Below, one piece after another: positions 193 through 27,648 of a stretch of DNA of 28,880 nt. The translations under genes and the position numbers were made by a program. The stretch spans positions 1-28,880 of IMG/VR virus record IMGVR_UViG_3300043496_000225; one strand, written 5' to 3'. The notes beneath the pieces were generated by a model, which worked only from the letters and a program-made list of their open reading frames with translations, was not told where the DNA came from and did not search any database. The first letter of the stretch is position 1. The number at the start of each line of letters is the position of its first letter. The stretch comes from a virus.

Positions 193-720
193 ATGCCTCG
201 ACGCGTCGCGGGTACTCCCGGGGTACCCCCGCCTGACCCAGGATCCCCGGCGTCCCGATCCTCTGGCGGAGGCTCGGGAGTACCCCCGGGAGTACCCCCG
301 CCGGGAGTCCCCCCGGACGACGTGACGAGCGCCTCGCAGCAGCTCGCCGTCGCGGTGGCACGCTTGGTCCGGACGGTTCTCCAGGCGTTGCCCGCCCCGC
401 CCCCGACGGCGCCGGGACCGGACGTGCCCGCCGTCGAGGCGCAGTTGCTGCGGGCGGAGCAGGTGGCGGTGGTGCTCGACTGCTCGCCGTGGCAGCTGCA
501 GCAAATGCGCAAGGCGCGGCGCGGCCCCCCGTGCTTCTCGCTCACCCACGACGACAAGAACATCCGCTACGATCGGACCGCGCTGCTCACCTGGATCGCG
601 CGGGAACGGGCCAACCAGGCTACGGCTTTTGCTGCCCCGTCGTCAGACGAGCCGCCTTCCGGTCCGCCTTCGTCCAGTGCTGCGGGGACGGCGCGAAGGG
701 GTCGGCGGCCGTCCCGATGA
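193..720 (+). CDS. Excisionase-like HTH DNA-binding protein
   Basis: The C-terminal half contains a MerR/HTH_17-type winged-helix fold (LLRAEQVAVVLDCS, then a basic QMRKARRGPP turn, then RYDRTALLTWIA), as in excisionases and AlpA-type regulators. It could direct excision by the neighbouring integrase. The N-terminal part is a low-complexity Gly/Val/Pro tract encoded by tandem GTAC-centred repeats. That tract may be non-coding attP-arm DNA if translation really starts at GTG 322. ATG 193 lacks a clear Shine-Dalgarno, and GTG 121 is also in frame. Its last 101 bases overlap the 3' end of the convergent integrase gene. A role in excision is inferred from fold and position only. Confidence 0.6.
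   Translation: MPRRVAGTPGVPPPDPGSPASRSSGGGSGVPPGVPPPGVPPDDVTSASQQLAVAVARLVRTVLQALPAPPPTAPGPDVPAVEAQLLRAEQVAVVLDCSPWQLQQMRKARRGPPCFSLTHDDKNIRYDRTALLTWIARERANQATAFAAPSSDEPPSGPPSSSAAGTARRGRRPSR
211..314. repeat. Cluster of GTAC-centred palindromic sites, left attP arm
   Basis: Sites of the form GGRGTACYCC occur at 211-219, 220-230 (GGGGTACCCCC), 276-287 and 288-299 (two tandem 12-mers GGGAGTACCCCC), with a degenerate copy at 303-314. Related sites lie at the integrase ribosome-binding site (1751-1760) and at the right end (28757-28778). Repeats on both sides of attP suggest arm-type binding sites for integrase, excisionase or a repressor. They also encode the GVPP tract of the excisionase-like gene if its upstream start is used. 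Confidence 0.55.
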
Positions 721-1750
721 AGCGGCCGACGAGCAGGGTCGTCACGCCCACCGTCGGCGAGTGCCGGGCATAGAAGCGGCGCGTCGTCTCCGGACTCATG
801 TGGCCGGCGACGGCCGACACCTGGCCGAAGTCGCCGCCGGCGTTCGTCGCTTCCTGGAGCGTCGAGTGCCGCAGGTTGTAGGGCGGGATGTCCGTGGGAA
901 ACCCCGACGTGCGTAACGCCTTCCCGTACGAGCGGCGATCGTAGACGCCCCAGGCGTCGGCAGCGATGAAGAGCCGCCAGGCCTGCACCATCTCCGGATT
1001 GAGCGCCAGCCGCACCGGCTTCCCGCCCTTGGCGCGGCGCACCGACCACCAGCCAAACGCCTGCGGCTCGGCGATCGCGGGCAGCTGCACGTCGCCCGGC
1101 TGCGCGCGCATGATCTGCACGGGTCGCTGCCCGCACGTCGCCTCCACCAGGAAGCGCGCACGCGTCTTCCCATCGCGTAAGCGGCCCTTGGTCTCCTGCT
1201 CGAGCAGGTTCCCCGCGACCGTCGCAATCAGGCCGGCGCTCACCAGCTTTGGATCCTCCGGTTCGACCTTGCCGACCTTCACATAGTCGGCCGGTGTCGG
1301 CCCGCGCGGATCGGCCAGCTTGAACACGGACCGCAGTACCTGCAGCCGGTGCCGCACCTCTCGCGGTTTGACGCCATCGCGCTCCCAGAGCGCGACGGTC
1401 TTCGCGACATCGCCGTCCGGGATGGCATACCGCGAGCGGGTGCCGAACGCCGCGACCCACGGTTTGACGTGGGACCGATCCGACGCGTAACAGCTGCGGC
1501 CCTCGCGCGTGCGGAGCCATTCCTCGACATCCTGCGCGAACGATCCCGCCGCGACCGCGGTCGTCACGCCTGGCGTCGCGGACCGCTCCTGATCGTCGCG
1601 AAACGCCCGCAGGACGCCGAGGTCTGTCTCCAGGGGAAACGACTGAAAGCAGGCGCGCCCGTGGGATTTCCAACGGACGCGAACGGAGGCGGGGCCTCGA
1701 AAAATATTGCGTGCGACTTTCGTCCACCGGATGGGTGTCGTTCTCGGCAT
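620..1750 (-). CDS. int: Tyrosine site-specific integrase
   Basis: A 376-residue tyrosine recombinase expected to recombine attP with a host tRNA-Met gene. The N-terminal part looks like a SAM-like core-binding domain (about residues 70-150). The catalytic domain shows Arg209 (CGQRPVQI), a beta-hairpin lysine near 241-244 (RRAKGGKP), Arg294 in PPYNLRHSTLQ, His317 in AGHMSPETT and the nucleophile Tyr327 (RRFYAR). The usual HxxR motif is YxxR here (Tyr291). The start at 1750 is chosen because AGAGGAG lies 7-8 bases upstream; the frame stays open to 1846 but without a comparable site. The gene points toward attP, as is usual for integrases. The GTAC-centred site at 1751-1760 overlaps its ribosome-binding region, which suggests regulation. 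Confidence 0.93.
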   Translation of the reverse strand: MPRTTPIRWTKVARNIFRGPASVRVRWKSHGRACFQSFPLETDLGVLRAFRDDQERSATPGVTTAVAAGSFAQDVEEWLRTREGRSCYASDRSHVKPWVAAFGTRSRYAIPDGDVAKTVALWERDGVKPREVRHRLQVLRSVFKLADPRGPTPADYVKVGKVEPEDPKLVSAGLIATVAGNLLEQETKGRLRDGKTRARFLVEATCGQRPVQIMRAQPGDVQLPAIAEPQAFGWWSVRRAKGGKPVRLALNPEMVQAWRLFIAADAWGVYDRRSYGKALRTSGFPTDIPPYNLRHSTLQEATNAGGDFGQVSAVAGHMSPETTRRFYARHSPTVGVTTLLVGRFIGTAADPFAPSPQHWTKADRKAARLTTGQQKP

Positions 1751-1760
1751 GGGGTACTCC
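1751..1760 (-). promoter_or_regulatory. GTAC-centred site over the integrase RBS
   Basis: On the minus strand this reads GGAGTACCCC, directly before the integrase ATG and overlapping its Shine-Dalgarno AGAGGAG. It matches the sites repeated in both attP arms. The overlap may be an operator or may be partly due to the G-rich Shine-Dalgarno. Confidence 0.4.
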
Positions 1761-1837
1761 TCTGAAGTGGCGGCACTCGGGGACGCCCAGGAACCCATGT
1801 CGTTCCTCGCGACATCACCGAACACACACATAGAAGA

Positions 1838-1869
1838 GTTTAACAAATTGCCGCATTTTGACGCAATTT
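1838..1869 (-). promoter_or_regulatory. Possible integrase promoter with inverted-repeat operator
   Basis: On the minus strand, TTGCGT (1861-1866) and TTAAAC (1838-1843) are separated by 17 bases, a plausible sigma-70-type promoter about 80 bases upstream of the integrase start. A perfect inverted repeat, AAATTGC (1845-1851) and GCAATTT (1863-1869), 11 bases apart, overlies it and could be a repressor operator. Both boxes match the consensus only in part. Confidence 0.35.
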
Positions 1870-7282: not shown

Positions 7283-7777
7283 ATGCGAACAGTTAGAGCA
7301 CCGGCTGCGCCGGTTCGTTCGCGGATTTACGAAAAAATCATCTGGGATTCGTTGCGTGCGGCGGCCTACGCATCATTCGCGGAGCTGGTCGAGGACGTAA
7401 AGATTCGCTGCGCCCGGCTCCGCATCCCGTACCGCGACCACGAAATCGACGACGCGATCGCCGCGATGGGCGACAAGGTGACGCGCGAGCTCGCGCCCCT
7501 CGAACGAGGTGGCAAAACCGGAAGTGACTCGACCGTTCCGCCCTTGACCCACGACGAGGCCGTGGCGGTCCTGCGCCGCCTGCACGCCAGGCCGAAGGCT
7601 GTCCCGGTCGTCCTGGTCCTGCCGCCCGAGCAGGTCGACCGCGCTCGGGCGTTCGCCATGGTGGTGCAGGGCATTCGCGAGCAGAAGGCCGTCTGTGCGG
7701 CGCTCGAGCGTCAGGGCCCGGAGCGCGCCAGCACGAACGTGGACCAGCCGACTGCAAATTCCGGGGACTCGCGGTGA
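7283..7777 (+). CDS. Early protein of unknown function
   Basis: A 164-residue protein encoded directly after the iteron array. The N-terminal part (about residues 15-75) is helical, with a possible winged-helix segment (YASFAELVEDVKIRCARLRIP, then HEIDDAIAAM). After a Gly/Ser linker comes a second helical part (LTHDEAVAVLRRLHA, VDRARAFAMVVQGIREQ). It overlaps RusA by GTGA. The ribosome-binding site is weak. It could be a replication partner acting at the adjacent repeats, but no family is recognised. Confidence 0.65.
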   Translation: MRTVRAPAAPVRSRIYEKIIWDSLRAAAYASFAELVEDVKIRCARLRIPYRDHEIDDAIAAMGDKVTRELAPLERGGKTGSDSTVPPLTHDEAVAVLRRLHARPKAVPVVLVLPPEQVDRARAFAMVVQGIREQKAVCAALERQGPERASTNVDQPTANSGDSR

Positions 7778-8238
7778 TGCGCTCGGTGACGTTCACGGTT
7801 ATCGGCATCGCGCAGCCGCAGGGCTCAACGAAGGCCTTCGTGCCCAAGGGCTGGACGCGGCCGATCGTCACGAGCGACAACCCGCTGAACAAGGGCTGGC
7901 GGCAATGCGTCGCCGAGCAGGCGCAGCAGGTCGCGGCCGAGGGGCAGTTCCTCGGACCGGTCGCGATGTTCGTCCGCTTCTCGCTGCCGCGGCCGGCGTC
8001 CCTGCCGCGACGCGTCGTCGCCCACGTGAAAGCGCCGGACCTCGACAAGTTGGTCCGGTCCGTGGGTGACGCGCTCACGGGCGTGCTCTATCGCGACGAT
8101 GCCCAGGTCGTCGAGCTCCGGGCCCGGAAGGTCTACGCCGGCGTCGGCACGGCGCCCCAGGCCGAGATCACCGTGCGCGATGTGACGGTGCTCGAGCCGC
8201 GGCAACTGACCAGCGCTTGGCTGTTCGAGGAGGACTGA
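7774..8238 (+). CDS. rusA: RusA-type Holliday junction resolvase
   Basis: A 154-residue protein with RusA hallmarks: an N-terminal FTVIGIAQPQGSTKAF strand-turn, then KAPDLDKLVRSVGDAL with Asp89, Asp91 and Asp99, then YRDDAQVVELRARKVY with Asp108/Asp109 and a conserved lysine. RusA dimers bind metal through these aspartates and cut four-way DNA junctions, resolving recombination or replication branches before packaging. The start is GTG 7774 in a GTGA overlap; ATG 7777 is also possible. Length fits the family (about 120-150 residues). Confidence 0.9.
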   Translation: MMRSVTFTVIGIAQPQGSTKAFVPKGWTRPIVTSDNPLNKGWRQCVAEQAQQVAAEGQFLGPVAMFVRFSLPRPASLPRRVVAHVKAPDLDKLVRSVGDALTGVLYRDDAQVVELRARKVYAGVGTAPQAEITVRDVTVLEPRQLTSAWLFEED

Positions 8239-9577: not shown

Positions 9578-10024
9578 ATGAGTTCACACAAGGCCGTCAT
9601 TACGTTTCTCGACGGGGGCCTCGAGGGGAGTCGTCCCGACAATGCGCTGCCCGGGAGCAATCTGCCGCCCGGCGGCGTGACGCTGCCGGTGTTCCCGTTC
9701 GACCCGACCGATCCCGGGTACGGCCAGGGCCGGCCCGACCATCGCCCCGACCAGGGCCTGCCTGGCCACGGGCATCCCGACCAGGATCTGCCCGGTCGCC
9801 CGGCGCGTCCCGATCAGGGTCTGCCCGGCAGCGGCGCTCGTCCTGACCAGGGCTTGCCGCCGAGCGGTGCCCGTCCCGATGCCGGTCTGCCCATGCCCGG
9901 CAAGCGCTACGTCGTCAAGTGGCTGGCCTGTCACGGGCTGATCCTCGTGCCCGACCAGGGTCTGCCGTCGACCACGCCGCCGACGCCGGACAACACGCTG
10001 GCGCCGACCGCGGCACCCAAGTAG
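9578..10024 (+). CDS. PDQGLP-repeat protein
   Basis: A 148-residue protein with a strong GGAGAAGGAG ribosome-binding site. After a short N-terminus (SSHKAVITFLDGG), about residues 18-105 are a degenerate tandem repeat of 8-12 residues around RPDQGLPG (copies include RPDHRPDQGLPG, HPDQDLPG, RPDQGLPGSGA and RPDAGLP). A short non-repeat segment (KRYVVKWLACHGLILV) follows, and one more PDQGLP lies near the end. There is no signal peptide. The extended, low-hydrophobicity repeat suggests a structural or binding role. I do not recognise a characterised family. Confidence 0.75.
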   Translation: MSSHKAVITFLDGGLEGSRPDNALPGSNLPPGGVTLPVFPFDPTDPGYGQGRPDHRPDQGLPGHGHPDQDLPGRPARPDQGLPGSGARPDQGLPPSGARPDAGLPMPGKRYVVKWLACHGLILVPDQGLPSTTPPTPDNTLAPTAAPK

Positions 10025-10028
10025 GTCC

Positions 10029-10127
10029 ATGATCCTCGCGGGCACCGTCGCCGTGGTCGTCCTCGCGCTGGTCGGGATCGCCAGCGTGCTCCTCGGCGCC
10101 GATGCCCGGCGTCGTGCCCAACGCTAG
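10029..10127 (+). CDS. Small single-pass membrane peptide (32 aa)
   Basis: The 32-residue frame begins MILAGTVAVVVLALVGIASV and ends in a short basic tail (ADARRRAQR), typical of a single membrane span with a cytoplasmic C-terminus. AAGTAGG lies close upstream. It fits between the repeat protein and the PEP-CTERM gene without overlap. It could be a holin-like or regulatory membrane peptide; the size is too small to assign a family. Confidence 0.5.
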   Translation: MILAGTVAVVVLALVGIASVLLGADARRRAQR

Positions 10128-10155
10128 CGGCCCGCATTCTCCGGAGGAACGTTCC

Positions 10156-11013
10156 ATGTCCGAGCAACCATCGCCCAGCCCGTCGCCCAGCCCCAGCCCC
10201 AGTCCGTCGCCCAGTCCCAGCCCGTCACCGAGCCCCAGCCCGTCGCCCTCGCCCTCGCCCGCCCCTTCCATTCGCCGCCGTCTGGCGCGGGGCGTGGTGT
10301 GCGGCGGGCTGGCCTGGCTGGCCTCGGTGGGGTCGGCGTGGGCCGTGCCGATTACGGGGTCGGTCACGCTGTCCCAGTCCGCGCTGGTCTGTCCGAATGC
10401 GGATTGCGTGATTCCGGTCCTCGGCACGGGCGTGCAGACCACGCTTGACCTTGCCGTCGCACTCGACTTCACCAGCGCGGGCGCACCCACGCCCGGTGTT
10501 GCGGGGCCGATGAGCATCGACGGGGGGACGGGTGTGTTCGCGGGCATCCTGGGCGCGGGCACCATCAAAGACTTCTGCTTCGTCGCCGGGTCGTGCGGGA
10601 TTTATTCGTACCCGCCGATTGCGGCCTGGCAGACCTCGGCGGGTGGCGCGACCTTCGACATGCTGACGGTCGTGCGGCCGTTTGCGAGTCCGAACGGGCT
10701 GGTCCTGACCGGGACCGGGCTGTTCCATATCGCTGGCTACGACAACACGCCGGGCCTCTTCACGCTCTCGGTCACCAACACCGGCACCGCCTTCTCGTTC
10801 TCGGCCACCGATGCCGCGACCGCTGTGCCCGAGCCGGCGAGTCTGGCGCTGGTGGGGATGGGCGTGCTCGCCGCCGGGCGCCGACTCCGGCGTCGCGCGG
10901 AAGGGATCGGTCTCCAGCGTGTCTCCCTCATCCTCCCTCGAGGGCGGGCTCGTCCCCCGCATGGATACGCCGCCCCGTGTGGCCCGAGCGGGGGAGAGCG
11001 GATCGGGCACTGA
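10156..11013 (+). CDS. Exported PEP-CTERM protein with Pro-Ser repeat
   Basis: A 285-residue protein started by GGAGG upstream of ATG 10156. Residues 5-38 are 15 Pro-Ser pairs plus PAPS. A signal peptide follows (IRRRLARGVVCGGLAWLAS, predicted cut after AWA at about residue 63). The mature part is beta-rich with a Cys pair. Residues 224-248 form a PEP-CTERM sorting signal: VPEPAS, a hydrophobic span, then RRLRRRA. In the known system, exosortase recognises this signal and the protein is sorted to the cell surface or exopolysaccharide. Oddly, 37 residues follow the signal, which is normally at the very C-terminus. No exosortase is encoded here, so a host exosortase would be needed. Confidence 0.8.
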   Translation: MSEQPSPSPSPSPSPSPSPSPSPSPSPSPSPSPSPAPSIRRRLARGVVCGGLAWLASVGSAWAVPITGSVTLSQSALVCPNADCVIPVLGTGVQTTLDLAVALDFTSAGAPTPGVAGPMSIDGGTGVFAGILGAGTIKDFCFVAGSCGIYSYPPIAAWQTSAGGATFDMLTVVRPFASPNGLVLTGTGLFHIAGYDNTPGLFTLSVTNTGTAFSFSATDAATAVPEPASLALVGMGVLAAGRRLRRRAEGIGLQRVSLILPRGRARPPHGYAAPCGPSGGERIGH

Positions 11014-11134
11014 CGAGCAGGACCGGACCTGTCCCGGCTGCGGCGAGTTCCGGCTCGTCGAGTGCGATCCGGTCTTGCGGCGGTGGCACTGTGCGGTGTG
11101 CAGCGAGACCTGGCGTGTCAGGTGGGGCGCTTAG
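10961..11134 (+). CDS. Small zinc-ribbon protein (57 aa)
   Basis: The frame encodes a 57-residue protein with CPGC (residues 24-27) and CAVC (44-47), a typical zinc ribbon. It overlaps the end of the PEP-CTERM gene by 53 bases in another frame. The Shine-Dalgarno is weak (GAGGGCGGG about 14 bases upstream). The paired cysteines support it as real; the function is unknown. Confidence 0.5.
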   Translation: MDTPPRVARAGESGSGTDEQDRTCPGCGEFRLVECDPVLRRWHCAVCSETWRVRWGA

Positions 11135-11177
11135 CACATGGACGCGCCCAACGGTATCCCTCGACTCGCCCTATTTC

Positions 11178-11246
11178 GGGGGGGTCGCGGGGGGTCGCGA
11201 CCATATGGGGGGCGCTAAGGGCGACGCGCGCCGGGGGGGGGTGGGG
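11178..11246 (+). other. G-tract cluster before the packaging genes
   Basis: Runs of 7, 6, 6, 3, 9 and 4 G lie within 70 bases (11178-11246), just before the HNH start; another run of 8 lies at 11601-11608 before the terminase leader. Four or more G3 runs on one strand allow a G-quadruplex. The last runs also serve as the ribosome-binding region of HNH. Homopolymer runs of this length are also sites of sequencing or replication slippage. Confidence 0.45.
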
Positions 11247-11253
11247 TAGCCCC

Positions 11254-11580
11254 GTGGCGACCGCTCCCCCGCGTCCCTGCCCTCGCTGTGGCCGCGTCCA
11301 GGTCGGTCCCTGTCCGTCCTGTCGACGTCCCGCCTGGGACCCCTCGCATACCACCGTGCGCATGCGGGGCCGTCGGCTGCAACAGGCGCGCTACGCCCTC
11401 TTTCGGGTGCAGCCGCTCTGCGTCCTCTGCGGCCTCGAGCCCGCCACCATCCGCGACCACATCCTGTCCTTGTCCGAAGGCGGGCGCGACGAGCTCGCCA
11501 ACACGCAAGGGGTGTGTGATGGCTGTCATCAACGCAAGACGACGATCGAATCGCAACGCGGATCGATCCGTCATCGATAG
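11254..11580 (+). CDS. HNH endonuclease next to terminase
   Basis: A 108-residue protein started at GTG after a G-rich ribosome-binding region; the frame is open upstream to 11062, so a longer form cannot be excluded. The N-terminus holds a zinc ribbon (C9/C12, C20/C23). The HNH domain has CVLC (56-59), Asp68-His69, Asn83 and CDGCHQRK (88-95). HNH proteins beside terminase in HK97-like and other cos phages stimulate terminase cleavage of DNA and are needed for packaging. That role is likely here. Confidence 0.85.
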   Translation: MATAPPRPCPRCGRVQVGPCPSCRRPAWDPSHTTVRMRGRRLQQARYALFRVQPLCVLCGLEPATIRDHILSLSEGGRDELANTQGVCDGCHQRKTTIESQRGSIRHR

Positions 11581-11696: not shown

Positions 11697-13559
11697 ATGG
11701 CGGGCGTCAAAGGGCGGAGCGGCCGGCGGCGGCTCTCGTTCGAAGAACTGCGGCTGCGCGGCACGTATCAGCGGACGCGGCATGGGGTGACGGCGCCCGA
11801 GACGCCGGTCGATCCCAAAAAGCAGATCCAGGCCTGGCAGCGCTTCCTGAAACAGCTGGCGACCGCGAAGGCCAAGGGAGACGCCAGCCCGCTCGACGCC
11901 TATGCGCGGAGCGTCGTGGGCGGCACGGTGCCGGCGGGGAAGTATCACCGGCTGGCCTGTGCGCGACATCTGCGCGACCGGACCCGGGAAGGGACCGCGG
12001 CCTTTCCGTACCGCCTCGAGGGCGATCGGGTCGCGCGGCTGCTCGCGTTTGTCCGCCGCCTGAAGCATTACAAGGGGCAATGGGCCGGTCAGACGATCCG
12101 GCTGGCCCCTCACCAGGTGTTCCGGCTGGGGTCGATGGTCGGCTGGGTGCACGTCACGACCGGGTGTCGGCGGTTTCGGCGCAGCTACCACGAGGTGCCG
12201 CGGAAGAACGGGAAGAGCCTCGAAGCGGCGATCGTCGCGCTCTACATCACCTTTTTCGACGGGGAGGGCGGCGCCGAAGGGTACTGCGCCGCGACCAAAA
12301 AGGACCAGGCGCGGATCGTGTGGGGCGATGCCGCGCAGCTGGTGAGGACGTCGATCCTGCGGGTCGGGATCGAGTCGTTCGCGCGCAACCTGCACGACCC
12401 GACGACGATGTCGAAGCTCGAGGCGCTCGGGAGCGACTCGGATTCAACCGACGGGCTGAACCCGCATCTCATCATCCAGGACGAGTTCCACGCGCAGAAG
12501 GACCGGAAGATGATCGACGTCCTCGAGACGGCGACGGGCGCGCGGCGGCAACCGGTCGACATGCGGATCACGACCGCGGGGGATGATCCCGTCTCACCGG
12601 GCGGCGACGAGCACGCCTACGCCTGCCAGGTGCTCGACCAGGTGATCGCCGACGAGAGCTACTTCGCCTTCCTGGCGCACGCCGATCCCGACGACGACTG
12701 GCAGGCCGAAGCGACGTGGCGCAAGGCCAACCCCAATTACGGCGTGTCCGTCACCCCGGAAGATCTCCGGGCGCTCGCGGCGAAGGCCAAACACATGCCG
12801 GCGGCCGCCGCGGCCTTCCGGCAGAAGCGGCTGAACGAGTGGATCAACACCTCGGCGCCCTGGCTGTCGATCGAGGGCTGGCGCCGGGGGCAGACGCGCT
12901 GGACGGCCGAGACGATGGCCGGCGAGGAGTGTTGGATCGGGATCGACCTGAGCTCGAAGATCGACCTGACCGCGGTGGTCCTGGTCTTCCCCCCGACGCC
13001 GGCCCGCAAGACCTGGCGGCTGCTGCCGTGGTGCCTGACCCCGGACGACACGCTCGAGGAGCGCGCCCACCGCGACCGGGCGCCCTATCGGCAATGGGTG
13101 GTCGACGGCGAGCGTGACGAGGCCGGCCTGCGGACCAATCCCGGCAACCGCATCGACCAGGACGTCGTGCGCGACCTGGTGCGCCGGGCGTCGACGCTGT
13201 TCCACGTCGAAGCGATCGGGATCGACCCGTGGAACGCCGGCAACCTGGTGCAGGATTTGGTGACCGACGGCGGGCAGGTGATCGAGATCCCGCAAACGCT
13301 GCAGCAGATGTCGGGGCCGTCGAAGGAGTTCGAGGCCGACGTGCTCGACGGGCTGGTCGACGCCGGCGGCGACCCGCTGTTCACCTGGTGTATCGCGAAT
13401 GTCGTCGTGCAGCGGGACGGGAAAGACAACATCTATCCCGTGAAGAAACGGAGCCGCGGGCGGATCGATCCGGTGATCGCCGCGCTCCTCGGCCGCAAGG
13501 TCGCGCGCCTCCAGGCGCCCGCGCCGCTGCCGGCCTATACCATGACGATGATCGGGTAA
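11697..13559 (+). CDS. terL: Terminase large subunit
   Basis: A 620-residue terminase that translocates and cuts phage DNA at the portal. The ATPase domain shows a variant Walker A, PRKNGKS (168-174), and Walker B-like LIIQDEFH (258-265). The nuclease domain shows GIDLSSKIDLTAV (Asp417), GIDPW (Asp510) and RIDPVIAALLG (Asp591), as in other HK97-type large subunits. The family core seems to begin near DAYARSVVGGTVPAGK (67-82). The first 35 residues (GVKGRSGRRR, LRGTYQRTRHG) instead resemble the N-terminal tail of P27-type small subunits. No separate small subunit is seen. The start at 11697 has no Shine-Dalgarno and directly follows the leader stop. Confidence 0.95.
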   Translation: MAGVKGRSGRRRLSFEELRLRGTYQRTRHGVTAPETPVDPKKQIQAWQRFLKQLATAKAKGDASPLDAYARSVVGGTVPAGKYHRLACARHLRDRTREGTAAFPYRLEGDRVARLLAFVRRLKHYKGQWAGQTIRLAPHQVFRLGSMVGWVHVTTGCRRFRRSYHEVPRKNGKSLEAAIVALYITFFDGEGGAEGYCAATKKDQARIVWGDAAQLVRTSILRVGIESFARNLHDPTTMSKLEALGSDSDSTDGLNPHLIIQDEFHAQKDRKMIDVLETATGARRQPVDMRITTAGDDPVSPGGDEHAYACQVLDQVIADESYFAFLAHADPDDDWQAEATWRKANPNYGVSVTPEDLRALAAKAKHMPAAAAAFRQKRLNEWINTSAPWLSIEGWRRGQTRWTAETMAGEECWIGIDLSSKIDLTAVVLVFPPTPARKTWRLLPWCLTPDDTLEERAHRDRAPYRQWVVDGERDEAGLRTNPGNRIDQDVVRDLVRRASTLFHVEAIGIDPWNAGNLVQDLVTDGGQVIEIPQTLQQMSGPSKEFEADVLDGLVDAGGDPLFTWCIANVVVQRDGKDNIYPVKKRSRGRIDPVIAALLGRKVARLQAPAPLPAYTMTMIG

Positions 13560-25446: not shown

Positions 25447-26015
25447 ATATCCGGGTTCCGCGCACATGGTTCAACGGGCTGGTCGACGATAACGGCACGG
25501 GCAACGGGACGCTGTGGAATAGAGCGGCGATCGGCGGCGGGATCGATGCGACCGACCAAGCGTTCGCGCTGCTCGATGGCGTCGGGAAGTGGCTGGGTTA
25601 CTCACCCCTCACCAACAGCCCGGGCGGGAGCAAAACCGCCGCGTACACGTTCACGGGGCAGGCCAACGTCGGCACGCTGATGTTCTACGGCGGGCTGACC
25701 GGCGGCAATATCGGCACGGATGGCTATCTGCAGTGGTCGATCCCGACCGCCTTCATGCTGCCGTTTGCGCGTGATACCTACATCGGGCCCGCCGCCGCCT
25801 CATGGACCGTGAGCGGCGGCGGGACGACCTACGAGACGCTGTCCTGCTTCGTCAATGCGCTCAACTCGCAAGGCATCTACTTCTCGCGGGCGGGGTACGC
25901 GGGCATCCCCGCGCATACCGCCCTCACGCTGAGTTTTTCGTCGCTCGCCGTGCATGTGCAGCCAGCGAGCCTCGGCGAGGAACGTCAATCACCGGAACGC
26001 GAGGTGTCGGAATGA
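25443..26015 (+). CDS. Distal tail protein of unknown function
   Basis: A 190-residue protein whose ATG overlaps the hub stop (ATGA) and follows GAGGGGAG. It is rich in Gly, Thr and aromatic residues (YTFTGQANVGTLMFYGGLTG, LQWSIPTAFMLPFARDTYIG) and looks beta-stranded, like a tail tip or fibre protein. The C-terminus has a strand-like LTLSFSSLAVHV and a charged tail. A receptor-contact role is inferred from position. Confidence 0.7.
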   Translation: MNIRVPRTWFNGLVDDNGTGNGTLWNRAAIGGGIDATDQAFALLDGVGKWLGYSPLTNSPGGSKTAAYTFTGQANVGTLMFYGGLTGGNIGTDGYLQWSIPTAFMLPFARDTYIGPAAASWTVSGGGTTYETLSCFVNALNSQGIYFSRAGYAGIPAHTALTLSFSSLAVHVQPASLGEERQSPEREVSE

Positions 26016-26578
26016 GCCGACGTGTCCTGCTCGTCGCGCTGATCCTCCTCGGCGCTTGCCGCTGGGACGTACCGCCGACCGGCCCGACCACGGTGACGCA
26101 AACGGTCACCGTCACCACCACGACCCAGCCGACGCCGACCCCGACGCCCACGCCGACCCCGGGGACGCCGACGCCGACCGGCAACCGCACGCCCGACCCG
26201 AGCCCTGGCAGCGCGCTGCCGCTGCCGATCTACGGCGCCTCGGTGGTCGAGGCCTACGCGAACTCCGCCGCGGGCGCGGCCTGGCTCAAGGGCGCCTGCC
26301 CGAGCGGCGGCTCCGCCCCCTGGGCCTTCTTGGACGGGGTGGTCGACGCCTTGCGCCAGCACGACACCAGGTGGGGGTATCTCTGCAAGCGGGGCGATTG
26401 CTCGAACCCGTCGAGCGACAACGTCGCCTACCACAACACCGCGGGCCCCGACATCACCGGCGCCACCGGGGTCATCGCCGTCGACGTGATCGGGGACTTG
26501 TGCGGGAAGAATGCGCCGCAGTGGGCGATCGGCGCCTACGATCCGGCGGGCGTGTGGTCGAGCCGCGGCCGCTTCTGA
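26012..26578 (+). CDS. Lipoprotein with Thr/Pro linker
   Basis: A 188-residue protein starting at an ATGA overlap. The N-terminus is a lipoprotein signal (SRRVLLVALILLGAC, Cys at residue 16). A Thr/Pro-rich linker (about 24-65) with TPTP repeats follows. The C-terminal domain (about 70-188) has Cys residues in GACPSGG, YLCKRGDC and DLCGKN, likely disulfides. It is attached at the end of the tail operon. It could be surface-exposed on lysogens (exclusion or conversion), or a lysis-related lipoprotein. I do not recognise a characterised family. Confidence 0.75.
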   Translation: MSRRVLLVALILLGACRWDVPPTGPTTVTQTVTVTTTTQPTPTPTPTPTPGTPTPTGNRTPDPSPGSALPLPIYGASVVEAYANSAAGAAWLKGACPSGGSAPWAFLDGVVDALRQHDTRWGYLCKRGDCSNPSSDNVAYHNTAGPDITGATGVIAVDVIGDLCGKNAPQWAIGAYDPAGVWSSRGRF

Positions 26579-26766: not shown

Positions 26767-27648
26767 TCACTTGCGACGCACCTGGCGCTCCGCGAGGCGG
26801 GCCCGAGCATCGGTGTCGCCAATCTTCTCGTTCGATCGCGTATCCAGGAACCCCACCAGCTTCCACGTCCCCGTGTACGGCGGCGGTGCCCCGAACGGCA
26901 CGTTCGCGCGATAGACCGCGCGCACGTGCGCACTCGTGAACGTGAGCTGGCGCGTCACGATCGGCGGGCGCGGGACCTCGGTTTCACTTGAGGTGTCGCC
27001 GTCGGGCCGGCCAAACTCCTCGAGGAGCGCCATCAGCTCGTCGCCGCCGGCGGTCGGTGCGGCCAGGGTGCCGGCGCTCCGCGGCGAGCTCGGTGTGCGG
27101 GCGGGCGCCGGTCTCGCGCGCGTCACGAAGGTCACGACCCCGACCAGAGCAATGAACGCGACGGCGCCCCAGCCCCAGTAGCGCGCCCGCACCGCACGGG
27201 CACGGCCCTCGGCCTCAGTGGCGGCCGTCGCGATGGGCTGACCCGTCGCGGCGGCAATCAGGGGCGGCTGGCCGGACCCGGCGGCGACGATGCACACTAG
27301 GTGCAGCACCAGTCCCGGCAGGATGAAGAGGGCGTAGCCGACGACCACGAAGACGAACCAGGCGATGCCCTGGGCAATCTGGCCCTTGTAGATCTGGCCG
27401 GCGCCGGGAATCAGGAAACTGAGCAGGGCCGCCACGCCCGGACGCCACGCGTGCACCGCCACCACCACCACCGGGCTCGCCGGGGCGGCCGGCCCCACCA
27501 CGGGCGGCGGCGCTTCGAGGACGGCGCGGGGGGCGGGCACCCGGCGCGCCCGCTGCTCGTCGTCCACGCTGGGGAGGCGGGCATCGCAGAAGCGGCAGAC
27601 GAGGGCCGCGTCCTGGATCTCCTGCGCGCAGGAGGGGCACGTCTTCAC
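26767..27648 (-). CDS. Membrane protein with zinc ribbon and TM2-like domain
   Basis: A 293-residue protein starting at GTG in a GTGA overlap with the RHH gene. The N-terminal zinc ribbon is CPSC (4-7) and CRFC (18-21). After a Pro/Ala linker comes a TM2-like pair (PGVAALLSFLIPGAGQIYKG, IAWFVFVVVGYALFILPGLV), then another helix before residue 145 and a third span (WGWGAVAFIALVGVVTFV). The C-terminal soluble domain (about 220-293) reads RQLTFTSAHVRAVYRANVPF and WKLVGFLDTR. TM2-type proteins are widespread in bacterial membranes. Its place beside attP suggests lysogenic conversion or exclusion of other phages. The exact role is unknown. Confidence 0.75.
   Translation of the reverse strand: MKTCPSCAQEIQDAALVCRFCDARLPSVDDEQRARRVPAPRAVLEAPPPVVGPAAPASPVVVVAVHAWRPGVAALLSFLIPGAGQIYKGQIAQGIAWFVFVVVGYALFILPGLVLHLVCIVAAGSGQPPLIAAATGQPIATAATEAEGRARAVRARYWGWGAVAFIALVGVVTFVTRARPAPARTPSSPRSAGTLAAPTAGGDELMALLEEFGRPDGDTSSETEVPRPPIVTRQLTFTSAHVRAVYRANVPFGAPPPYTGTWKLVGFLDTRSNEKIGDTDARARLAERQVRRK

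Follow-up and report, generated by a model that had tools for sequence, protein, structure and literature searches.

A phage PEP-CTERM gene as probable accessory cargo that would convert the host envelope by way of the host exosortase

The window analysed here is the entire virus record IMGVR_UViG_3300043496_000225 (IMG/VR), 28,880 bases that are classed as linear and are therefore possibly a fragment. It carries a gene for a 285-aa PEP-CTERM protein at 10156..11013 (coordinates are on the plus strand unless the minus strand is given). The best explanation, with a probability of about 0.6, is that this gene is a phage accessory (moron or cargo) gene for a secreted surface protein that converts the host envelope through the host exosortase pathway. 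A sequence-only reading had suggested lysogenic conversion of the envelope; the sorting signal, the cargo status and the conservation of the gene make this the best explanation, and the two examples offered, receptor blocking and biofilm change, are not separated.

The reading frame starts at ATG 10156, 7 nt downstream of the Shine-Dalgarno sequence GGAGGA (10143..10148), which makes the Pro-Ser run that follows part of the predicted product. This repeat covers residues 5-38 (10168..10269; tandem repeats at 10171-10254) and consists of Pro and Ser apart from one Ala. It precedes a predicted Sec signal peptide (residues 39-63, 10270..10344) that has an n/h/c pattern and a predicted cut after AWA, IRRRLARGVVCGGLAWLASVGSAWA/VPITG, with the A-x-A aligned to ASA/VPITG in the relatives. 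The mature domain (residues 64-222, 10345..10821) leads into the PEP-CTERM sorting signal VPEPASLALVGMGVLAAGRRLRRR (residues about 224-247, 10825..10896), and a tail of residues 248-285 (10897..11010) follows the basic cluster. The signal scored 25.8 bits against PF07589 (gathering cut-off 20.7, E = 1.1e-5) and 16.5 bits against TIGR02595 (cut-off 16), and the relatives scored 28.8-30.8 bits against PF07589. Both matches are above their cut-offs and bear out the assignment of the signal to the exosortase pathway. The frame, its ribosome binding site, the PF07589 score and the conserved homologs likewise confirm a phage-encoded PEP-CTERM protein with a Pro-Ser repeat before its signal peptide. 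The tail is present as described, and its length is corrected from 37 to 38 aa. A PHROGs search with the protein gave no convincing match, and the AlphaFold model of a relative's protein was poor (mean pLDDT of 36 for the mature domain).

Homologs occur on three other viral contigs (L002-L004) from different metagenomes that belong to an unrelated phage family. Their proteins are 73-75% identical to the window protein overall and are canonical, with a short n-region, the same mature domain and VPEPASLALMGMGLL..RRLRRRVAA followed by the stop. The mature domain and signal are kept at 82-84% aa identity with a dN/dS of 0.11-0.13 (82% and about 0.13 for the mature domain against L003), values that cover the whole divergence between the window gene and its relatives and cannot isolate recent decay. 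DNA homology is limited to 10335-10895. With the signal-peptidase site at one end and the basic cluster at the other, this conserved block would correspond to the part of the protein that reaches the exosortase. The homology block and the low dN/dS point to the mature domain and sorting signal as the part that selection keeps, and the retention of both in the homologs argues that the PEP-CTERM signal is beyond chance. No other gene is convincingly shared between the window phage and the L002-L004 phages. Homologs of the mature domain were not found in cultured phages, plasmids or species-representative genomes, the genome search resting on two short peptide patterns. One cellular protein (L076) has a similarity outside the sorting signal that is weak yet above 1000 shuffles.

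The odd ends of the window protein bear on the main rival explanation, that this copy is decaying or inert cargo, a former functional PEP-CTERM moron that has lost its stop and its native signal-peptide start with selection gone. It is the main rival because Haft et al. suspect that long tails mark non-functional examples (PMC1569441). They report fewer than ten residues after the signal in 87% of PEP-CTERM proteins, with exceptions (PMC1569441). The signal typically, not strictly, lies within about 10 residues of the C-terminus, as it does in the relatives; 38 residues follow it in the window protein. Across 35 distinct phage PEP-CTERM genes, the segment that begins with PEP and runs to the C-terminus measures 23-32 aa, with the window's 61 the only outlier, and the relatives' stop comes 3 residues past the basic cluster (RRRVAA-stop). 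The GC3 is 0.70 in the tail versus 0.86 in the mature part. The tail is not coding-like in its own frame and overlaps, in a different frame, a 57-aa zinc-ribbon ORF (CPGC...CAVC; 10961..11134; GC3 0.82) for which profile searches returned no family above cut-off. A frameshift as the origin of the tail was rejected, since the other frames lack an early stop. In the simplest reading, the tail is probably a lost stop running into the next ORF. The N-terminus, which cannot be aligned with those of the relatives, also fits decay.

Decay is nevertheless unlikely. The frame is intact over 285 codons behind a strong ribosome binding site, both odd segments lie outside the mature part, and the dN/dS is low over the whole divergence, a measure that does not resolve recent loss. 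Reconstructed from two ancestral units, the changes in the Pro-Ser codons are 9 synonymous and 2 non-synonymous (P about 3e-4, with 0.28 expected, in a test that rests on an assumed ancestor and GC-rich DNA), and this excess of synonymous changes gives the run the appearance of being translated and constrained. The repeat and the long tail are both private to the window copy, and both are predicted to lie where signal peptidase and exosortase would trim the protein. By comparison with L002-L004, they are not essential features of the protein. The suggestion that they affect processing was not upheld, because the relatives do without both and both lie in the parts predicted to be cut off.

The accessory status of the gene is clearest in the L002-L004 family, where the terminase of L003 and its kin is 657 aa long and shares about 53% identity with its counterpart in the cultured Stenotrophomonas phage DLP5. 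An insertion of ~820 bp directly after the terminase gene of L002-L004 holds the PEP-CTERM gene together with a small membrane ORF. The distance from the terminase stop to the next conserved gene is 882 bp, versus 60-124 bp in sister phages L090-L093 and up to 258 bp in others; the sisters have an empty site, with the next conserved gene directly 3' of the terminase. A near-consensus sigma-70 promoter (TTGACA-17-TATAGT) lies between terminase and PEP-CTERM gene. Judged by its insertion, empty site and own predicted promoter, the L002-L004 gene is a textbook moron. The window gene has no promoter match close to its start; the first one upstream, at 9 of 12, precedes the gene at 9578. No terminator was found downstream of the PEP-CTERM gene in the window or L002-L004. 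An own promoter was rejected as a general trait of phage PEP-CTERM genes, as the signal was weak (3/35 at 10/12 or better versus 14/332 control upstream regions).

The insertion and its empty site also bear on two further alternatives. Because the gene adjoins the terminase in several lineages, near packaging and structural genes, it could encode a virion or lysis protein whose likeness to PEP-CTERM proteins is only superficial. This is very improbable: the protein combines a signal peptide with a canonical sorting signal, and the absence of the gene from sister phages with the empty site means that the virion can do without it. The other alternative, that mis-assembly or poor trimming left host DNA in a viral contig, is hardly credible and already largely refuted. 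IMG/VR records can hold host flanks, as may some of the 39 pattern-matched contigs described below, but phage genes lie on both sides of the gene in the window and L003, and the insertion behind the terminase recurs in three separate records that come from different metagenomes.

The window encodes a tyrosine integrase, RusA, terminase, a protease-capsid fusion, an HK97-type portal, and neck, tail-tube and tape-measure proteins. From this gene content, the phage is temperate and siphovirus-like, the integrase (620..1846, minus strand; phrog_1, E = 1.1e-11) marking the temperate lifestyle. The PEP-CTERM gene lies between the RusA/early module and the HNH-terminase genes. The cargo region is flanked by a RusA-type resolvase (7774..8238; PF05866), and its first gene is an ORF for a PDQGLPG-repeat protein (9578..10024; 33-nt repeat by TRF). 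A 32-aa single-TM ORF read from the sequence, MILAGTVAVVVLALVGIASVLLGADARRRAQR (10029..10127), is just 5' of the PEP-CTERM gene. On the other side are a frame with an HNH endonuclease (11062..11580, start codon uncertain; HNH at residues 120-160; PF01844, 30.2 bits) and the flanking terminase large subunit (11697..13559; phrog_9, E = 1.7e-149). RNA families and tRNAs were not found in the window. Among the kin of the window phage, L132 has RusA and an SSB-like gene on one side, terminase on the other and different cargo between (methyltransferase, HNH, CRISPR array), and L131 carries a C5 methyltransferase as cargo in the RusA/SSB-to-TerL interval. The empty-site evidence thus belongs to L002-L004, and for the window it is the variable cargo in the same interval among its kin; on these two grounds, the idea that the window gene behaves as accessory cargo stands. 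Among the window's terminase relatives covered by the search, many of them fragments, none had PF07589.

Several other features of these phages were recorded. PDNxLPG/PDQGLPG-repeat proteins are encoded at window 9578-10024 and L003:3318-3530, in phages that are otherwise unrelated but both have this PEP-CTERM gene. In each of the two, the PEP-CTERM gene has a short single-TM ORF as its neighbour (window 10029-10127; L003:9127-9222), and the two ORFs show no obvious sequence similarity. A predicted phage lipoprotein (MSRRVLLVALILLGAC...) with a Thr-Pro repeat at about 26000-26578 is a second exported protein and has no Pfam match. Near the right end, 26767-27648 (minus strand) encodes a zinc-ribbon plus TM2/DUF6677-like membrane protein (weak matches), possibly a further cargo gene. 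At L132:1940-4300, the CRISPR array, in which a 36-nt repeat occurs seven times at intervals of about 71-73 nt and is degenerate in its last copy, adjoins a 427-aa ORF with weak TnpB/Cas12f-like matches. The closest terminase relatives (L006, L008, L009, L020) are contigs that all start 26-49 bp 5' of the terminase gene, which may mark the end of the genome or hypervariable sequence at which assembly breaks off.

The viral records searched, the window included, have no match to the exosortase family PF09721, and the same search found it in 4/4 cellular genomes tested that had PEP-CTERM hits. Processing of the window protein would therefore need the host's enzyme. In cellular genome G113, a PEP-CTERM gene (L082) with a layout similar to the window's adjoins an exosortase. 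A search for the host through terminase relatives in genomes returned only distant or doubtful MAG contigs. We infer the processing and location of the protein from the pathway. Host Sec would export it, and signal peptidase would remove the N-terminus together with the Pro-Ser run. The C-terminal PEP-CTERM helix would anchor it in the inner membrane until cleavage near PEP by the exosortase of the host, after which the helix would be discarded along with the tail, which pathway topology places in the cytoplasm. The mature domain of about 159 residues would reach the cell surface or the exopolysaccharide layer. There it could change the envelope of an infected cell or lysogen, for instance by keeping slime attached to the cell or by impeding other phages. 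That the phage benefits, and by what route, we only infer.

The sequence-only reading had called for a search of other phages for the VPEP motif. A strict high-GC codon pattern (VPEPA-S/T-L-x-L) matched 39 viral contigs, one of them L002; nearly all have a canonical signal, and several have the gene beside terminase/portal genes. Some of these contigs may include host flanks, and a contig was counted as phage only if phage genes adjoin the PEP-CTERM gene. In one further lineage (L044, L051, L072, L042, L034, L064, L061, L057), a PEP-CTERM gene sits close to the terminase or in the space between terminase and portal; in another (L065, L069), it is near a phrog_38 terminase. The L003 family has other, distinct PEP-CTERM genes as well: 8/26 records match PF07589, 7 over the cut-off, and four of the 8 have two matches. 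A PEP-CTERM family with TITSFGN/QIVSFGQ-like mature parts (L034, L041, L042, L044, L048, L051, L064, L072) recurs in one terminase lineage; the one member tested had no PHROGs or cultured-phage match. A literature search of incomplete coverage found no paper on phage-borne PEP-CTERM genes.

These phages carry many unrelated mature domains with only the sorting signal in common, and some carry two PEP-CTERM genes, as might be expected of a decoy. Such a substrate would flood the host exosortase and leave host PEP-CTERM proteins undisplayed, thinning the slime barrier and easing adsorption or release. The strong purifying selection on the mature domain, needless for a pure decoy, makes this quite improbable. 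At slightly less than even odds, interchangeable PEP-CTERM genes have been taken up again and again by unrelated phage lineages, often next to terminase/portal genes, as general conversion cargo that remodels surface and exopolysaccharide via the host exosortase, perhaps for superinfection exclusion. In many environmental bacteria, flocs, biofilms and the attachment of exopolysaccharide have been linked to exosortase pathways. If phages do supply exosortase substrates, they have a direct route to altering aggregation, matrix and phage sensitivity, and a protein group mostly without any function would gain testable ones.

The window protein shares with the PEP-CTERM/exosortase (EpsH) system (PF07589/PF09721; Haft et al. 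2006, PMC1569441) a signal peptide, a fast-evolving mature domain, and a VPEP motif, transmembrane helix and basic cluster near the C-terminus. It differs in being encoded on a phage without exosortase, in its 38-aa tail where most have fewer than 10 residues, and in the Pro-Ser run before the signal peptide. The best full-length NCBIfam match was PepA, the floc-associated PEP-CTERM protein (NF033554), at 32.6 bits for the window and 34-39 bits for the relatives. Membership in PepA was rejected, because 32.6 bits is far below the 80-bit cut-off and the mature part alone had no match. The likeness is that of a secreted PEP-CTERM protein, PepA being linked to exopolysaccharide retention (PMC9850573). 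Overexpression of PepA shifts exopolysaccharide from soluble to cell-bound and restores flocs (PMC9850573), so a phage supplying such a protein could alter the host coat. Like phage morons in general, the gene is an autonomous unit, which in L002-L004 lies between conserved phage genes behind a predicted promoter of its own, and its product is predicted to be an exported envelope protein; unlike them, the phage PEP-CTERM protein would depend on the host exosortase for its sorting.
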